From contig JABDMH010000152.1 in assembly GCA_013001595.1 (NCBI GenBank), positions 1-64,000 of the forward strand: a DNA stretch of 64,000 nucleotides. The letters run 5' to 3'. Position 1 is the stretch's first letter, and each line of letters begins with the position of its first letter. The position numbers and the translations under genes are program-made. Source of the stretch: Saprospiraceae bacterium (GTDB taxonomy: Bacteria; Bacteroidota; Bacteroidia; Chitinophagales; Saprospiraceae). The notes under the pieces were generated by a model. It did not search any database. It was not told where the DNA came from and saw only the letters and a program-made list of their open reading frames with translations. Below are positions 345-7,817 of this stretch, one piece after another.

Positions 345-422
345 GGGCGATTAGCTCAGTTGGTTCAGAGCACTTGGTTTACACCCAAGGGGTCGGGGGT
401 TCGAATCCCTCATCGCCCACCA
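345..422 (+). tRNA. tRNA-Val (anticodon TAC)
   Basis: A full cloverleaf can be folded. The acceptor stem GGGCGAT (345-351) pairs with ATCGCCC (412-418). The anticodon arm CTTGG-TTTACAC-CCAAG gives anticodon TAC. The T arm reads GGGGG-TTCGAAT-CCCT(C). The 3' ACCA (419-422) is encoded in the DNA, so CCA does not have to be added. TAC reads GTA/GTG valine codons. Confidence 0.96.
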
Positions 423-3024: not shown

Positions 3025-5949
3025 TCATAAATCGGCCTTATTGGCCTGCAGCAGCACTGCGTCCGTTACAGTGAGCATGGCATAGGCGTGCTCTACGGTG
3101 ACCTTGCCTTGCAAGCGATAGAACCCGGGTCTTAGGCAGCCATGTCGCTCTAGTATTCTGGGAAAATGAACCGTATCGAAATATTCATCACATTCATCAA
3201 TCCAGGTGGCAAAACACATGTGCCCACCACCAGCAGTAGTAACGGGTTTTTCGATGAGGTAATACCCCAACATCTCCACGATCAAATGCTGATGCTGTAC
3301 CATTTGCTTTGCCACTATCCTCGCACGACTAGCTTTGCCCATATACCTATCGAAGGGTCTGGACAAGGCAAAACCCAACAATGCAACCTCCTCAGTAGCG
3401 TCATCGGCAGGTACTTTGCTGTCCACAGGCAAGGATACAGTCTGTTGACCGCTTTCTGCAGGAAAGAGACTCTGCTGTCTATGTGGCGTATAGTGCCTAA
3501 GTAGGATGCCATACAATCTGGTCTTGTCCTGTGCCAGCGTGCGGAAGGCACCAATGCGTATCAAGAGATCCAACTGACCAAAGGGTAGCGATACACGTGA
3601 CAGGAAATCCGGAAAGTCAGTAAAACATCCAGCGCTACGAGCAGCGAGGAGGAGCTGCAAAGTTTTGTATCTGATCTTTTTGAGATGCTTGAATCCCAGT
3701 AAGATTCGGTTGCTGATCAAGGTGCTGCCAGATCCAGTGCGATTGATGCAAGGTGGCTCAACCACTGCTCCCAACCTCCGCGCTTCGTGGACATAGCACT
3801 CGGTCGGATAAAAGCCCCCAGCGCAATCAATGACCGCCATAATGAACTGGAGGGGAAAGTGTGCTTTAAGATATAGACTCTGTAGGCTCTCGACAGCATA
3901 AGAAGCAGAATGAGCTTTGCAAAATGCATAGCCACTGAATGAGGCGACCTGTCGCCATATTTCCTTGATATCGGCTTCTCTGTGACCCTTGGCCGCTGCA
4001 CCTGCATAAAATTTTGCTTGCAGTGCGGTTAGTTCCTTCTGGAATTTGCGCTTACCCGTCATGAGCCGGCGCAGCATATCTGCCTCGTGCATATCAAAGT
4101 CGGCAAAAAGATGCACCATCTTCATGACGTCCTCTTGGTACACCATAATCCCATAGGTGTCGGCCAGGTGCTCTCGAAAGAGTGGATGAAGGTTGCGAGC
4201 CAATGGTTTGCCCAGATGACTATCGATATATCGTTGCATCATTCCACTCTTGGCCACTCCTGGACGGATGATGGAGCATGCCGCGATCAGTTCTTTATAG
4301 GTGCGACATTTCAGCTTGGCCAGGAGACCACGCATGGCAGGTGACTCGATGTAGAAGCAGCCGATACATGCACTGTCTTGCAGTAACTTCTGCACCTTGG
4401 AATCTGCTTTGATGCAGGCCATGTCTCGAATACCCGCAACATCAATCTTCCCGTGTGTCCATTGGATTGCCTTCTGCACATGACTGAGACCACGTTGGCT
4501 AAGGATATCCAATTTATGATAACCCCATTCAGATGCATGATGCATATCCATCATTGTTACTGGAACCCCCTTGGGCATCATTTTGAGAGCAGTGGTATAA
4601 GACAACGGCTTGCCACCGATGATGATGCCACCCACGTGCATGCCGAGGTGACTGGGATACATTCGCAATTGATGACCGATGGCAAAAATCTTTTTGGCCA
4701 TAGGATGATGCTTTGCATCAGACCACGGTTCCTGAACGATCATGTCTTGCTCAGACTTGCTTAGTCCCAGCACACTGCCAATGCTGCGAACAAGCGACTT
4801 CCCCTTGTACCTTTGGTAGGTGCCCAGCACGGCAGCATGATCTGGGGTATACTTATCAAAGACGTATTGCCATACATCATCTCGATCGAAGTGACTGAAA
4901 TCAATATCAAAATCGGGAGGCTGCTCTCGGTACGGATTGATGAATCGCTCAAAATATAGATTGAGTTCGATGGGATCAACATCAGTAATGAACAGGCAGT
5001 ATGCTACCACCGAGTTTGCTCCGCTGCCCCTTCCTACGTAGAAGAATTTCCTTCTTCTGGCATACCTGACGATATCCCAGGTAGTGAGAAAGTAGCACTC
5101 CAAGTTCAATCGTTCGATCAGGTCAAGCTCTGCCTTTAACCTAAGTGCCACAGTCGGATGATTTGCAGCATATCTTCGTGCCCTCCCCTTCCAGGCCAAG
5201 GCTCGAAGACGCACCAAATCTTCCCATCGGTCTGCACCAAAATTTGGGCGATTGACACAAAGTCCCTGGTCAAGATTGAAGTGAGTCTCCTCCAAAATAC
5301 GGGCTGCATTGCGAAGTAGCCATGGCGCATGTTGAAACTTTCTACCTAGCTTGTCAAGTGCGACCATATGTTCGGACGATGCTGCAGTTTGGTTCCGCAG
5401 CGGGTGTCCCAATAATTTCTTTTCACCAATAGCCCGTAGTATTTGGTGAAGATGATGTTCTCCAGGCTGTGCCAAGGTAATGGGATGCCAGGCCACCTGC
5501 TTCTGACACTGTAATGAACCCGGTATTGCAGATTTCTGAGCAAAGACCTGCGTGGCCTTTACCAATTGATATTCATGGGGAGCAAGATCTCGCAAACGGC
5601 AGGGCAGTTTCGGATAGAGGACTATACAATTAGAGATGCTGGGTCTCATAGGCAAAGCCTTCTGATGTACAGAATTCCTATTCAATAGTTGGTGCAAAGC
5701 ATGCATCCCATGTGCATTCTTTGCCAGCACGATGTATAGGGTCCGGCCATTTTGCCAGAATTCTGCCCCTATGGATGCAGCGATGCTTGCATTACTGCAC
5801 AGCCGATGAAATTCGACTGCGCACGCACTGTTGTTGATATCAGTCAGTGCCAGAGCAGTCACACCACAATCGACGGCCTGCTGGACCAGCTGCGCTGGAC
5901 TCATCAGGCCATAGTGATAGCTATGGTAGGTGTGGCAATTCAAAAACAT
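3025..5949 (-). CDS. short DNA polymerase III alpha subunit (DnaE; error-prone/ImuC-like)
   Basis: About 974 residues, C-family polymerase. The order is an N-terminal PHP domain (FLNCHTYHSYHYG...ALTDINNSACAVEF), the palm with GRGSGANSVVAY and the catalytic PDFDIDF motif near residue 370, a third acidic position in YHKLDIL, then fingers, helix-hairpin-helix and a C-terminal OB-like region. The start chosen is the ATG at 5949, giving MFLNCHTY, which is the usual N-terminus of short Bacteroidota DnaE proteins; the longer frame to 6006 needs TTG. PHP metal ligands look lost (NCHT rather than HxHT; TDINN rather than TDHxN), so proofreading by this domain is unlikely. QQSLF near residue 815 resembles a beta-clamp-binding motif. 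Being much shorter than a replicative DnaE and next to a LexA-like gene, it is probably a damage-tolerance polymerase. No Y-family polymerase lies beside it. Confidence 0.88.
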   Translation of the reverse strand: MFLNCHTYHSYHYGLMSPAQLVQQAVDCGVTALALTDINNSACAVEFHRLCSNASIAASIGAEFWQNGRTLYIVLAKNAHGMHALHQLLNRNSVHQKALPMRPSISNCIVLYPKLPCRLRDLAPHEYQLVKATQVFAQKSAIPGSLQCQKQVAWHPITLAQPGEHHLHQILRAIGEKKLLGHPLRNQTAASSEHMVALDKLGRKFQHAPWLLRNAARILEETHFNLDQGLCVNRPNFGADRWEDLVRLRALAWKGRARRYAANHPTVALRLKAELDLIERLNLECYFLTTWDIVRYARRRKFFYVGRGSGANSVVAYCLFITDVDPIELNLYFERFINPYREQPPDFDIDFSHFDRDDVWQYVFDKYTPDHAAVLGTYQRYKGKSLVRSIGSVLGLSKSEQDMIVQEPWSDAKHHPMAKKIFAIGHQLRMYPSHLGMHVGGIIIGGKPLSYTTALKMMPKGVPVTMMDMHHASEWGYHKLDILSQRGLSHVQKAIQWTHGKIDVAGIRDMACIKADSKVQKLLQDSACIGCFYIESPAMRGLLAKLKCRTYKELIAACSIIRPGVAKSGMMQRYIDSHLGKPLARNLHPLFREHLADTYGIMVYQEDVMKMVHLFADFDMHEADMLRRLMTGKRKFQKELTALQAKFYAGAAAKGHREADIKEIWRQVASFSGYAFCKAHSASYAVESLQSLYLKAHFPLQFIMAVIDCAGGFYPTECYVHEARRLGAVVEPPCINRTGSGSTLISNRILLGFKHLKKIRYKTLQLLLAARSAGCFTDFPDFLSRVSLPFGQLDLLIRIGAFRTLAQDKTRLYGILLRHYTPHRQQSLFPAESGQQTVSLPVDSKVPADDATEEVALLGFALSRPFDRYMGKASRARIVAKQMVQHQHLIVEMLGYYLIEKPVTTAGGGHMCFATWIDECDEYFDTVHFPRILERHGCLRPGFYRLQGKVTVEHAYAMLTVTDAVLLQANKADL

Positions 5950-5999
5950 ATGATTCGTTCTAGTCACTGTATCCTTTACCTCACATGTAGAGATGAAAT

Positions 6000-6023
6000 T
6001 CGACAATGGCGAATAAATGTCGA
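6000..6023. promoter_or_regulatory. inverted repeat upstream of the DnaE gene (possible operator)
   Basis: TCGACA (6000-6005) and TGTCGA (6018-6023) form a perfect 6-bp inverted repeat with a 12-bp spacer, in the 154-bp gap between the divergent DnaE and GxxExxY genes. A second pair of half-site-like words, TTGTCA and TTGTCA-A, lies at 6052-6064. The size and spacing suit a dimeric repressor such as the S24 regulator encoded at 6564. Binding is inferred only. Confidence 0.35.
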
Positions 6024-6103
6024 TATTTTCGTCTTATTTTTGCCGATAATCTTGTCATTTGTCAAAATTTCCTTGTATATTGCTTTACTCAATCGAATAA
6101 ACC

Positions 6104-6535
6104 ATGTCCCAAAATTCCACCATGACCGTTGAACTGAGAATATCACAGTTGATACTACAAGTTGCTTTTCGCATGCATAAGGACTTAGGTCCAGGACTCT
6201 TGGAAAGCACTTATCTACATTGTATGGCCTATGAGTTGTCTCAGTTAGGTCTAACGGCCGCTCTCTGTAAAGAAATGCCATTGCAGTATGACAACCTTAA
6301 TCTAGACATAGGTTATCGAATACCCTTACTGGTAGAGAAGCGCGTGGTCGTTGACATCAAATCCCATAGCTTCACGGATCTGCATGAAGCACAAATGAAA
6401 ACCTATTTACGTTTGGCCCAATGTCCATTGGGATTGCTCTTTAATTTCAACCTAATATCGCTAAAGCATGGTGTAAGACGTATTGTCAGTAAAGAATCCA
6501 GTCAACATGGCCCGCTACTGAAGTCTGCCATTTGA
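6104..6535 (+). CDS. GxxExxY protein (PD-(D/E)XK nuclease-like fold)
   Basis: 143 residues. The signature G31-L-L-E34-S-T-Y37 defines the GxxExxY family (TIGR04256). It is followed by LVEKRVVVDIKS (E78, D84, K86) and HEAQMKTYL (H94, Q97), which follow the usual family pattern and look like a PD-(D/E)XK-type active site. The end, LGLLFNFN, is also typical. The family is widespread and its molecular role is not established; nuclease activity is a fold-based inference. It is divergent from the DnaE gene and 28 bp upstream of the LexA-like regulator, so it may be co-transcribed with the latter. ATG 6104 is used; an in-frame ATG at 6122 is the alternative. Confidence 0.85.
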   Translation: MSQNSTMTVELRISQLILQVAFRMHKDLGPGLLESTYLHCMAYELSQLGLTAALCKEMPLQYDNLNLDIGYRIPLLVEKRVVVDIKSHSFTDLHEAQMKTYLRLAQCPLGLLFNFNLISLKHGVRRIVSKESSQHGPLLKSAI

Positions 6536-6553
6536 TACTTCATTGAATGCAAA

Positions 6554-6565
6554 ATATGATCATAT
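6554..6565. promoter_or_regulatory. 12-bp perfect palindrome over the regulator start codon
   Basis: ATATGATCATAT is perfectly self-complementary and its last two bases are the first two bases of the ATG at 6564. A site here would let a dimeric repressor block its own gene. It does not share sequence with the inverted repeat at 6000-6023, so at most one of the two is likely to be the regulator's true site. Confidence 0.25.
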
Positions 6566-7316
6566 GTTGAGCGAAAACATTCGATACCTCCGCAAAAAGG
6601 ATAACCTATCTCAGCAGCAACTCGCAGAGAAACTTTCCATACCACGTACTACTCTGGGTGACTACGAAAGAGGTCATACGGAACCGAGCATGGATACTCT
6701 AATACACATTGCTGGAATTTTTGACATCAGCATCGATGCCTTATTGAAAGAACGATTGGCGCACCTGGATCTAGAAGTTTTACGGACAGACAATTTTCGC
6801 GTGTTGGCGATCTCCGTGAATGACCAGAATCGACAAAATATCGAATTCGTTTCCACCAAGGCCAGAGCGGGTTATTTGGAGAGTTTCCAAGATCCTGACT
6901 ACATCAAAGAACTACCTAAGATGTATTTCCCTAGCATTCCCGAAGGGAGCTACCGGGCCTTTGAAATACAGGGAGATTCCATGGTTCCGCTGGATTCAGG
7001 TTCAATTGTAGTTTGCTCATACGTAGAACAACTCGAAGAATTAAAAAATGATCGTACTTACGTAATTGCTACCCACCTTGATGGAATCGTCTATAAGAGG
7101 GTACTGATCAATCCTGACAAGACTTCTTTGACTGCAATATCTGACAACCCCACTTATCCGCCTTACAAAATACGCTACCAAGATATTGCTGAAGTATGGA
7201 GTTACTATGCCCACATTTCCTTCACGGATACAAAAAAGGCTGTGGAGCATGCGATTGATGAACGCATATCAGATATTCAGGAAAATGTACAATTTATTAA
7301 AGAGCAGATGTCCTAG
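6564..7316 (+). CDS. XRE/S24 LexA-like transcriptional regulator
   Basis: 250 residues from ATG 6564 (MLSENIRYLRKK); an extension to TTG 6543 is not needed. Residues about 1-60 are a Cro/CI-type helix-turn-helix (LSQQQLAEKL...TTLGDYERG). The C-terminal half is an S24 peptidase domain. The nucleophile is Ser139 in GDSMVP, the general base is Lys178 in IVYKRV, and an Ala102-Gly103 bond in KARAGYL matches the LexA/UmuD/CI self-cleavage site. All parts needed for RecA-triggered autocleavage are therefore present. In Bacteroidota such regulators often accompany DnaE and Y-family polymerases; here a short DnaE gene lies just beyond the GxxExxY gene. I infer a DNA-damage-responsive repressor of this locus. 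Confidence 0.9.
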   Translation: MLSENIRYLRKKDNLSQQQLAEKLSIPRTTLGDYERGHTEPSMDTLIHIAGIFDISIDALLKERLAHLDLEVLRTDNFRVLAISVNDQNRQNIEFVSTKARAGYLESFQDPDYIKELPKMYFPSIPEGSYRAFEIQGDSMVPLDSGSIVVCSYVEQLEELKNDRTYVIATHLDGIVYKRVLINPDKTSLTAISDNPTYPPYKIRYQDIAEVWSYYAHISFTDTKKAVEHAIDERISDIQENVQFIKEQMS

Positions 7317-7448: not shown

Positions 7449-7817
7449 ATGTCATGTTTAGAAAACGCCAATAAACTACAGCAGATGATGGCCGAAGGCC
7501 AGACCATGGAAGCCTTTGAAAAATTTTATGCCGATGATGTCGTCATTGTTGAAAAACCCACAGGAGAGGTACGCAATGGTAAAGATGCGCAACGCAAAGC
7601 CATCCAAGACTGGTTTGGAAGCGTCAAAGAAATGCACGGTGGAGGGATCGGTGCGATTACCAGCAATGAAGATGATCAAGTGAGCTGTGTCGAAAGTTGG
7701 TTTGATATCACCTTTCAAGATGGAAATCGTGTGAAAATGGAAGAGGTTGCAGTGCAAGAATGGAAGAACGATCAAATCGTCAAGGAATCCTTCTATTACA
7801 GTATGCCCAGTCAATGA
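7449..7817 (+). CDS. SnoaL/NTF2-like protein
   Basis: 122 residues with the profile of the cone-shaped SnoaL-like/NTF2 fold: an N-terminal helix (LQQMMAEGQTMEAFEKFYADDV), a strand with VIVEKPTGEVRNGKDAQRKA, and a C-terminal sheet ending in KESFYY. Such proteins bind small ligands or act as isomerases, cyclases or hydrolases; the substrate cannot be predicted. It stands alone. The ATG at 7449 follows a 132-bp gap with a small hairpin (AGCCTA/TAGGCT, 7407-7424). Confidence 0.75.
   Translation: MSCLENANKLQQMMAEGQTMEAFEKFYADDVVIVEKPTGEVRNGKDAQRKAIQDWFGSVKEMHGGGIGAITSNEDDQVSCVESWFDITFQDGNRVKMEEVAVQEWKNDQIVKESFYYSMPSQ

Follow-up and report, generated by a model that had tools for sequence, protein, structure and literature searches.

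Organization of the locus

What is a GxxExxY protein doing beside a short DnaE polymerase and an XRE/S24 regulator, in a locus that has no Y-family gene? The question is raised by a window of 64,000 nucleotides from a Saprospiraceae bacterium (the whole stretch of DNA analyzed), in which a dnaE2 gene on the reverse strand and GxxExxY and XRE/S24 genes on the forward strand surround one divergent promoter (Table 1). A first-pass annotation had described these three genes, and all of them were confirmed at their positions. A domain scan of the genes near dnaE2 returned a PTPS-related membrane protein, GxxExxY, S24 and a SnoaL-like protein; neither imuA nor imuB was found among the scanned neighbors. 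The annotation had also remarked that the expected Y-family gene is missing. This is true of the window locus, and also of the interval between S24 and DnaE in sister loci, but not of the genome, where a search for imuB/dinB with PF00817 found DinB on C156 and C92, neither of them on the window contig.

Table 1. Features of the locus, in window positions
Feature	Position	Strand	Basis
dnaE2-like error-prone C-family polymerase, 974 aa	3025..5949	-	Pfam pol III alpha domains
Predicted operator GTCGATATTTTCGTC in the shared promoter region (dyad GNCGA-N5-TCGNC)	6019..6033		Motif scan
GxxExxY (PDDEXK_3) protein, degenerate PD-(D/E)xK site	6122..6535	+	PF13366, TIGR04256
XRE/S24 repressor, putative Bacteroidota non-canonical LexA	6564..7316	+	HTH_3, Peptidase_S24, conserved self-cleavage residues
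SnoaL-like (NTF2-fold) gene	7449..7817	+	Domain match; 3' of S24 in the window as well as at three sister loci

Relatives of the window DnaE start with MFLNCH or MYLNCH, so the listed TTG at 6006 is unlikely to be the true start of dnaE2; the ATG at 5949 gives the length in Table 1. The probable start of GxxExxY is the ATG at 6122, with the ATG at 6104 as an alternative, and that of S24 is probably the ATG at 6564 instead of the TTG at 6543.

The trio is also found in G004 and G003, and the GxxExxY-S24 pair in G001, whose contig ends before any DnaE could appear, so that GxxExxY is not here by chance. Overall, GxxExxY adjoins S24 in four of six genomes of the genus and in four lineages beyond it. 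The chromosomal neighbors of the locus are kept across the genus and, in part, in an outgroup that has no GxxExxY, although for the window itself this conservation rests on one shared neighbor gene. The dispersed cassette that the annotation had considered was given up: a dispersed or mobile element was rejected on the conserved neighbors, and the usual DinB-DnaE2 cassette is separate and complete.

The XRE/S24 regulator and its predicted operator

The window S24 protein matches HTH_3 (1.1e-15) and Peptidase_S24 (1.2e-7) above cut-off and is 68 and 70% identical to its counterparts in the other trio genomes. Ala109-Gly110, Ser146 and Lys185 are invariant across eight aligned S24 proteins; we take Ala109-Gly110 to be the cleavage site and Ser146 and Lys185 to be the catalytic pair. 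By sequence, the protein belongs to the non-canonical LexA type of Bacteroidota, and induction by DNA damage is expected from its family.

S24 also resembles phage repressors (phrog_4, 3.7e-25), as it would if it were a prophage repressor in a prophage remnant; according to excerpts of PMC8565304, however, Bacteroidota SOS regulators in general have this resemblance. No phage-type gene was found beside S24 among the scanned window ORFs, the dyad described below is common to repair genes, and the chromosomal neighbors are conserved across species; a prophage origin was rejected on these neighbors, and we regard it as hardly credible. An anti-phage system was also rejected: PADLOC gave no match for GxxExxY, the SnoaL-like protein or DnaE, and S24 matched through its helix-turn-helix half.

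The palindrome GTCGATATTTTCGTC, which lies in S24's own promoter and whose dyad recurs before other repair genes in genomes with this repressor clade, is predicted to be the operator. The exact operator occurs at one site in the window (0.02 expected) and at the cassette in 7/7 genomes scanned, the majority of them used in deriving the motif, and the looser pattern GNCG-N7-CGNC lies upstream of 38/99 S24 genes compared with 1.6 in shuffles; both of these counts are partly circular because we recognized the dyad by eye in such loci. The latter count comes from a census of 100 S24 proteins with an A6 score of at least 235, of which 99 had 100 bases upstream. Two results played no part in deriving the dyad. 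GNCG-N7-CGNC precedes DnaE2 in 12 of the 17 genomes that carry this S24 clade and in 0 of the 10 that do not (4e-4; 11/16 without G114, which was counted as S24-bearing although its S24 scores 194.8 bits; no start was found for 4 of 31 DnaE loci). The exact site precedes a PA0069-type radical SAM gene in four of seven genomes, one such site being on C156. At L190, the listed ORF overlaps the operator, and its match to radical SAM begins about 15 nt in; the sequence of L210 opens only 23 bases ahead of the operator, with its upstream neighbor out of view. This sharing of a predicted operator with other repair genes supports the SOS-like character proposed by the annotation.

The looser pattern was present within 450 nt upstream of 6/9 cassette-linked GxxExxY genes and of 0/27 other copies; L136 and L175 had no match in their 450 nt, the flank of L122 is limited to 46 bases, and two further matches belonged to the window's own gene recurring in other loci. 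Genome-wide, the exact operator occurs 25 times over seven genomes versus 16 for a control pattern, a small excess with many sites inside genes, and a one-mismatch scan of the window's genome was at chance level (70 versus 64 for the control).

The shared dyad GNCGA-N5-TCGNC differs from the published motifs CTAA-N5-TTAG and GGA-N5-TCC. Because paralogues with diverged operator motifs are reported in PMC8565304, the window dyad marks a sub-branch of non-canonical LexA.

The DnaE2 polymerase and a second cassette

The window DnaE matches PF07733 (1.6e-57), the finger domain (2e-35) and PHP, and has the traits of DnaE2 (ImuC): it is a short C-family polymerase with a degenerate PHP site (His lost) and intact catalytic Asp, both Asp motifs, PPDFDIDF and KLDIL, being kept. 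A beta-clamp-like motif, QQSLF, is located at residue 825. QxxLF is present in 3/3 GxxExxY-linked DnaE proteins and in 7/93 others, where the 7 count one locus twice (L044 and L347) and the 93 contain other repeats; some DnaE2 proteins linked to DinB have the motif too, and it is missing from the DnaE of G116, although this protein belongs to the same DnaE group as the window's.

In the DnaE tree, from which fragments shorter than 380 aa and the replicative DnaE of L130 were left out, the window DnaE2 falls into a separate, fast-evolving, DinB-less group of 6 of the 46 rows with a branch support of 100. The proteins of the two other trio genomes are 47 and 42% identical to it. We took 40 DnaE2-type loci and left out a few fragments (e.g., G013, G014 and G024). 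In a wider search of 398 genomes of the family and 395 of the phylum, a profile built from the three trio members themselves scored these at 1823–1885 and the next protein at 1312; the score does not delimit the group, because G116, a member without GxxExxY, scores only 1187. No further GxxExxY neighbors of DnaE were found among the loci returned (at most 30 per search). Long-branch attraction is possible in the DinB-less group, whose branches are long. The annotation's premise of a usual place for such DnaE genes beside DinB stands outside the Saprospiraceae (DinB within 1.5 kb at 22 of 25 loci), but it is weak within the family (8 of 27 next-best loci, some with short flanks), where DnaE2 away from DinB is common.

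The window's genome carries at C92 a canonical cassette, separate and complete, with S24 divergent from DinB-DnaE2. Its dyad, TCTATCCTAGATAGA, has the pattern TCTAT-N5-ATAGA and differs from that of the window; no regulon was read for this pattern because it is below control genome-wide in 6/6 genomes. Only the C92-type S24 was seen in G002 and G005 of the genus, perhaps due to incompleteness. As far as sequence can tell, the genome thus has a second SOS-like cassette in the window locus, one that lacks PolY.

The window DnaE2 might nevertheless pair with the DinB of C92 as an ordinary DnaE2B-PolY-RecA mutasome, which would make GxxExxY irrelevant to the polymerase. Such a pairing is favored by a Y-family match in 12/12 relatives examined, by an S24-DinB pair elsewhere in genomes G001–G004, G066 and G116, and by the frequent separation of DnaE2 from DinB in the family. 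However, that DinB already sits with C92's own DnaE2, the dyads of the two cassettes differ, and the window DnaE2 belongs to a separate fast group and has its own clamp motif. We consider the pairing unlikely.

A degenerate nuclease under purifying selection

The window GxxExxY protein matches PF13366 (1.5e-29) and TIGR04256 (2e-30), both above the curated cut-off. Its three orthologues are also above the Pfam cut-off and are 44, 51 and 46% identical to it. Searches of the PDB by sequence and of PHROGs returned no match. The best structural matches of the predicted model (pLDDT 89, pTM 0.81) are PD-(D/E)xK nucleases, with a top Z of 8.8 (4ic1_G) and a best Foldseek E of 5.3e-3; with Z below 9, these matches are middling and support the fold, not a RecB/Cas4/Hjc-like subfamily. 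The protein is thus predicted to keep the PD-(D/E)xK fold.

The active site is altered. In the window protein, Asp is changed to Pro and Glu to Asp, and the catalytic D/E/K positions of the four orthologues read D-Q-K, D-N-K, P-D-K and P-Y-gap, so that each is without at least one residue. The 32 other copies are nearly all intact (D in 30, E in 32, K in 31; 2 short rows of 38 were left out). Four-fold synonymous sites are near saturation among the orthologues, compared with amino-acid identities of 43–63%. By this comparison of substitutions, the GxxExxY of the window lineage is under purifying selection, as a conserved putative pseudo-nuclease.

The PD-(D/E)xK superfamily has known examples of rearranged active sites, and the window protein keeps a D-x-K and the Glu of GxxExxY. 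Cassette-linked GxxExxY could then be a damage-induced nuclease whose window copy still cuts through a rearranged site, formed by the Asp of its DIK motif with another acidic residue for the lost Asp; five other cassette-linked copies (G118, G167, G024, G231 and G014) do keep D, E and K. This reading seems improbable to us, in that the orthologues lose other residues (Glu is replaced by Gln or Asn, or by Tyr with the Lys lost as well) and conservation tracks the fold, not the active site. Because the five copies are catalytically intact, association with a cassette is not enough to mark GxxExxY as an adaptor.

Association of GxxExxY with the S24 clade

If the S24-dnaE2 pair is truly SOS-like, GxxExxY could still be a passenger that came to lie downstream of the shared operator, its nuclease activity lost and the gene kept, for example, for translational coupling of S24 or for an old defense role. 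GxxExxY copies are scattered (4 in the window's genome; 30 of the 40 genomes searched have matches), outgroup loci are without the gene, and, with 28 nt between its end and the likely S24 start, it could simply set S24 translation. In Portibacter strains, which have this S24 clade, the locus carries DinB and no GxxExxY. On the other hand, GxxExxY is a neighbor of this S24 clade in four or five lineages, and more than one GxxExxY subfamily is involved (S24 fragments below 200 aa were left out of the S24 tree, and rows below 100 aa were dropped from the GxxExxY tree, 38 to 36). At L136, it lies downstream of S24. GxxExxY is the second commonest family beside S24 after DinB (8 versus 17 loci, 4 of the 8 from one genus; the next family, whose tested member is SRAP, has 6), in a census where neighbors can be missed at the 7 of 100 S24 genes with less than 700 bases upstream. 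Purifying selection on a dead protein also speaks against a mere passenger, an explanation that we find possible but rather less than probable.

In the gene-order comparison that the annotation had proposed as a test, GxxExxY recurs with S24 and a short DnaE or DinB, which supports this part of its reading. The comparison does not bear out a simple replacement of DinB by GxxExxY, since the sister loci of G066 and G116 lack both; because these loci are without GxxExxY, the gene is not fixed in PolY-less cassettes.

Proposed mechanism

The reading that we favor, and rate somewhat above an even chance, sees in the window locus a translesion cassette of new composition that is induced by DNA damage, with a pseudo-nuclease accessory and an S24 repressor cleaved through RecA. 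By analogy with the family, RecA filaments would induce self-cleavage of S24 at Ala-Gly. Loss of S24 would derepress dnaE2 leftward, GxxExxY-S24 rightward and perhaps the SnoaL-like gene, and, elsewhere, the PA0069/SplB-type radical SAM gene. GxxExxY would no longer cut DNA and may assist the PolY-less DnaE2 by binding DNA or protein, through a GxxExxY-DnaE contact that we infer. DnaE2 itself may reach the sliding clamp via its own QxxLF motif, without a Y-family partner.

A broader and more doubtful proposal is that GxxExxY has been recruited repeatedly to Saprospiraceae SOS cassettes and that, in one lineage, a dead partner took the place of the Y-family hub, leaving a PolY-less mutasome with DnaE2 directly bound to the clamp. 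A PolY-less DnaE2 cassette with its own clamp motif questions the need of DnaE2 for PolY or an ImuB hub. GxxExxY proteins are common and functionally blank, and the link to a damage-type operator gives the family a testable setting. GNCG-N7-CGNC is a candidate SOS box for Saprospiraceae.

Comparison with known systems

We found no paper joining Saprospiraceae, the SOS response and LexA. In the literature searched, GxxExxY is hardly mentioned, and in no paper on SOS as judged by titles; a word search of the main text of PMC12926913 did not find it, and Saprospiraceae are unnamed in the main text of PMC8565304. As described in parts of the latter (Sanchez-Osuna et al. 2021), the Bacteroidetes non-canonical LexA network shares with the window an XRE/S24 gene that is divergent from a polymerase gene and has a palindromic operator in its own promoter. 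Also common to both are SplB-type radical SAM, SRAP (COG2135) and DinB/DnaE as targets or neighbors, and paralogy with operator divergence, which that study describes for Weeksellaceae. The window differs from that account in GNCG-N7-CGNC, in a GxxExxY gene in the operon and in having no Y-family gene.

The DnaE2B-PolY-RecA mutasome of Bacteroidetes, as presented in excerpts of PMC12926913, likewise has DnaE2 without ImuA/ImuB beside it, and the C92 cassette fits this description. The window cassette differs in its lack of PolY and in a DnaE2 from a separate fast group with QxxLF; a few DnaE2B without a partner are mentioned in the same excerpts. The window GxxExxY protein agrees with the family GxxExxY/PDDEXK_3 (TIGR04256, PF13366) in passing both cut-offs and in its predicted fold, and differs in the degenerate active site of four orthologues and in a gene fixed in an SOS-type operon. 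Finally, ImuA-ImuB-DnaE2 offers an analogy, in which an error-prone DnaE2 and a damage-type regulator would again be joined by a dead partner, the ImuB polymerase there and a nuclease here; the window locus is without ImuA/ImuB, and the fold of its partner is unrelated.

Recurrence of GxxExxY genes beside S24 repressors

The DnaE of the window was searched against 60 genomes, its own among them, and 40 loci were fetched. The trio in which DnaE is divergent from GxxExxY-S24 was present in two of the 40, L042 (genome G004) and L052 (G003), both from the same genus, and a fourth genus member, G001, carried GxxExxY-S24 at a contig end (L112). A profile built from the three S24 proteins found matches at E 1e-30 in 135 of the 398 genomes of the family, a count that includes the more distant S24 type of contig C92, and yielded 48 named loci. 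When the direct neighbours of 100 distinct S24 proteins of the window's clade were counted, DinB was the commonest (17 loci) and GxxExxY the second commonest (8 loci), followed by a third family with 6 loci, whose tested member is SRAP, and by several with 4, including SnoaL-like genes. Genes of this SRAP (SOS response associated peptidase) candidate family lie directly beside this S24 clade in L126 and five other loci. The eight GxxExxY-S24 loci are those of the four genus members and of G118, G167, G024 and G231; their arrangements outside the genus are listed with the features of the window. In addition, G014 (L175) has an intact copy of another subfamily that precedes a DnaE2 gene in the same orientation.

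Features of the window locus and arrangement of related loci
Feature	Source	Position (nt)	Strand	Remarks
tRNA-Val (tac)	Window	345-422		Near left end
Short DnaE gene	Window	3025-5949	-	974 aa from conserved start MFLNCH at 5949
Exact dyad site	Window	6019-6033		GTCGATATTTTCGTC
GxxExxY gene	Window	6122-6535	+	Divergent from DnaE; precedes S24
XRE/S24 regulator gene	Window	6564-7316	+	Likely start 28 nt beyond GxxExxY gene
SnoaL-like gene	Window	7449-7817	+	After S24
SRAP-family gene	L126	6944-7669		Beside S24
GxxExxY-S24 pair	G118			DinB <> GxxExxY-S24
GxxExxY-S24 pair	G167			DinB <> GxxExxY-S24, order as G118
GxxExxY-S24 pair	G024			At contig end
GxxExxY-S24 pair	G231 (L136)			S24-GxxExxY

On the S24 tree, the GxxExxY-linked loci occupy four or five places, and L113 adjoins the window's group. 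On the GxxExxY tree, in which many branches are weak, the cassette label switches five times, with the G167 copy closest to the four genus orthologues (82/63). These scattered positions indicate that more than one GxxExxY subfamily has been recruited into the cassettes. GxxExxY genes are abundant, with 48 matches in 25 Saprospiraceae genomes (about 1.9 per genome). For 100 loci with two neighbours each and an assumed 4500 or so genes per genome, and with insertion preference ignored, about 0.1 (0.08) GxxExxY-S24 cases are expected by chance, versus four or five independent ones observed. Repeated co-occurrence of GxxExxY with S24, proposed as a test in the first-pass annotation, was found, with either a short DnaE or DinB nearby.

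A second cassette and the absent Y-family gene

The genome is 6.2 Mb and 99% complete, and the window is its contig C7. It has three DnaE genes, namely the replicative one (C75), a canonical DnaE2 (C92) and that of the window, and a search for imuB/dinB revealed two Y-family genes, on C156 and C92. The C92 cassette is canonical, with S24 divergent from DinB and DnaE2 next; its S24 and DnaE2 proteins are 35% and 39% identical to those of the window. A Y-family match was present in all 12 relatives examined. Consequently, the missing Y-family gene of the first-pass annotation holds for the window cassette and not for the organism.

Predicted operator and regulon

The divergent regions have in common the dyad GNCGA-N5-TCGNC, of which the 64 kb contain just one exact copy, the window site, against an expectation of 0.02. 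Seven genomes contained 1 to 6 exact sites each, and their total is not striking (25 versus 16 for a control pattern). An exact site lies at the cassette in 7/7 genomes, which is partly circular because most of these loci served to derive the dyad. In four of the seven (G000, G003, G066 and G166), an exact site directly precedes a radical SAM gene of the PA0069 family, whose proteins presumably fall in COG1533; the loci are L190, L214, L236 and L239. SplB-type radical SAM genes (COG1533) are conserved in the published Bacteroidetes SOS network (PMC8565304).

The looser dyad GNCG-N7-CGNC precedes 38 of 99 S24 genes, versus 1.6 in shuffles. It also precedes DnaE2 in 12/17 genomes with this S24 clade and in 0/10 without it, at loci not used to derive the motif (hypergeometric 4e-4, a rough value because the genomes are related). 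DnaE2 genes with an S24-type dyad upstream and no DinB within 1.5 kb occur in Saprospiraceae loci L350, L351, L355, L356, L358, L360, L361 and L363-L367. Such DinB-less loci point to a regulon that is split over several loci. The looser dyad was found at most 450 nt upstream of six of the nine cassette-linked GxxExxY genes (window, L042, L052, L112, L113 and L245); it was not found within that distance in L136 and L175, and just 46 nt of upstream flank was available for the scan in L122. It preceded none of 27 other GxxExxY copies, a count that leaves out two further hits to the gene of the window itself. The C92 cassette has a different dyad, TCTAT-N5-ATAGA, for which no genome-wide enrichment was found. 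Because the two dyads differ, the S24 paralogues of the window and C92 appear to run separate circuits.

Polymerase group and clamp motif

In a tree of 46 rows, six DinB-less DnaE proteins are set apart by a branch whose SH-aLRT support is 100, three with GxxExxY (window, L042 and L052) and three without (L247, L246, which is cut by a contig end, and L210, whose upstream neighbour lies outside the sequence). Their end branches of 0.63-0.96, versus a median of 0.33, indicate that these proteins evolve fast, and the grouping may reflect long-branch effects. Elsewhere, the DnaE2 behind DinB in L080 (G028) reads as two adjacent ORFs, of 450 and 624 aa, which do not group as sisters in the tree. 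A QxxLF motif is present near residue 825 in 3/3 GxxExxY-linked DnaE proteins versus 7/93 other DnaE2 rows (about 8e-4, kinship ignored), and was not found in the DinB-less DnaE of L247. QxxLF serves as the beta-clamp consensus in PMC12926913, which suggests that the GxxExxY-linked DnaE proteins may bind the clamp directly.

A conserved, probably inactive nuclease fold

At the Asp, Glu and Lys positions, the four genus orthologues of GxxExxY read D-Q-K (G003), D-N-K (G001), P-D-K (window) and P-Y-gap (G004, with Cys for the gap in another alignment). Of 32 other copies, 30 retain Asp, 32 Glu and 31 Lys; in the five other cassette-linked copies all three residues are intact. The four orthologues keep fold residues instead: the Tyr of GxxExxY, TYL and NF. 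Likeness at their four-fold synonymous sites (21-31 per pair) is 0.24-0.35, near the random 0.25-0.29, while amino-acid identity is 43-63%, which indicates purifying selection. An AlphaFold model from 34 sequences (pLDDT 89.4, pTM 0.81) has an alpha-beta-beta-beta-alpha-beta core, and among solved structures it most resembles PD-(D/E)xK proteins of the Cas4, restriction and Hjc types, with Z reaching 8.8. Taken together, the degenerate site, the selection and the model imply that the window protein is probably a conserved pseudo-nuclease, its fold kept and its catalysis lost.

History of the locus

Beyond S24, L042, L052 and L112 have in common O-antigen ligase-like and OmpA-like genes (Pfam-tested in L042); no gene there was common to these loci and the window. 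Beyond DnaE, the window and L052 have the same membrane-protein gene (40% identity). G066, which has no GxxExxY, has the OmpA-like gene and three more in common with L052. Given these common genes, the history is most simply explained by a PolY-less S24 <> DnaE2 locus that kept its position and that GxxExxY entered in the genus ancestor; less simply, GxxExxY may have been lost in G066. The SnoaL-like (NTF2-fold) gene directly follows S24 in four loci (window, L085, L246 and L247) and looks like part of the older state; we know of no link between it and SOS.

Proposed mechanism and comparison with known systems

Among open-licence papers, none joins Saprospiraceae, the SOS response and LexA, none joins PA0069 and LexA, and to our knowledge none describes GxxExxY in SOS cassettes. 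The locus combines a regulator, a common dyad, divergent genes and a GxxExxY gene that is degenerate but conserved, and the sequence supports its regulatory part well. By analogy with the LexA family, RecA-stimulated self-cleavage of S24 would lead to derepression. With less confidence, GxxExxY may serve DnaE2 as a non-cutting accessory that binds, for example, the polymerase or damaged template DNA. Chief among the rival explanations is that GxxExxY is a passenger, retained for its effect on S24 translation or on other grounds. Overall, the locus is real, conserved, SOS-like and of new composition. Its DnaE has intact polymerase motifs (PPDFDIDF and KLDIL) and a degenerate PHP site, like DnaE2.
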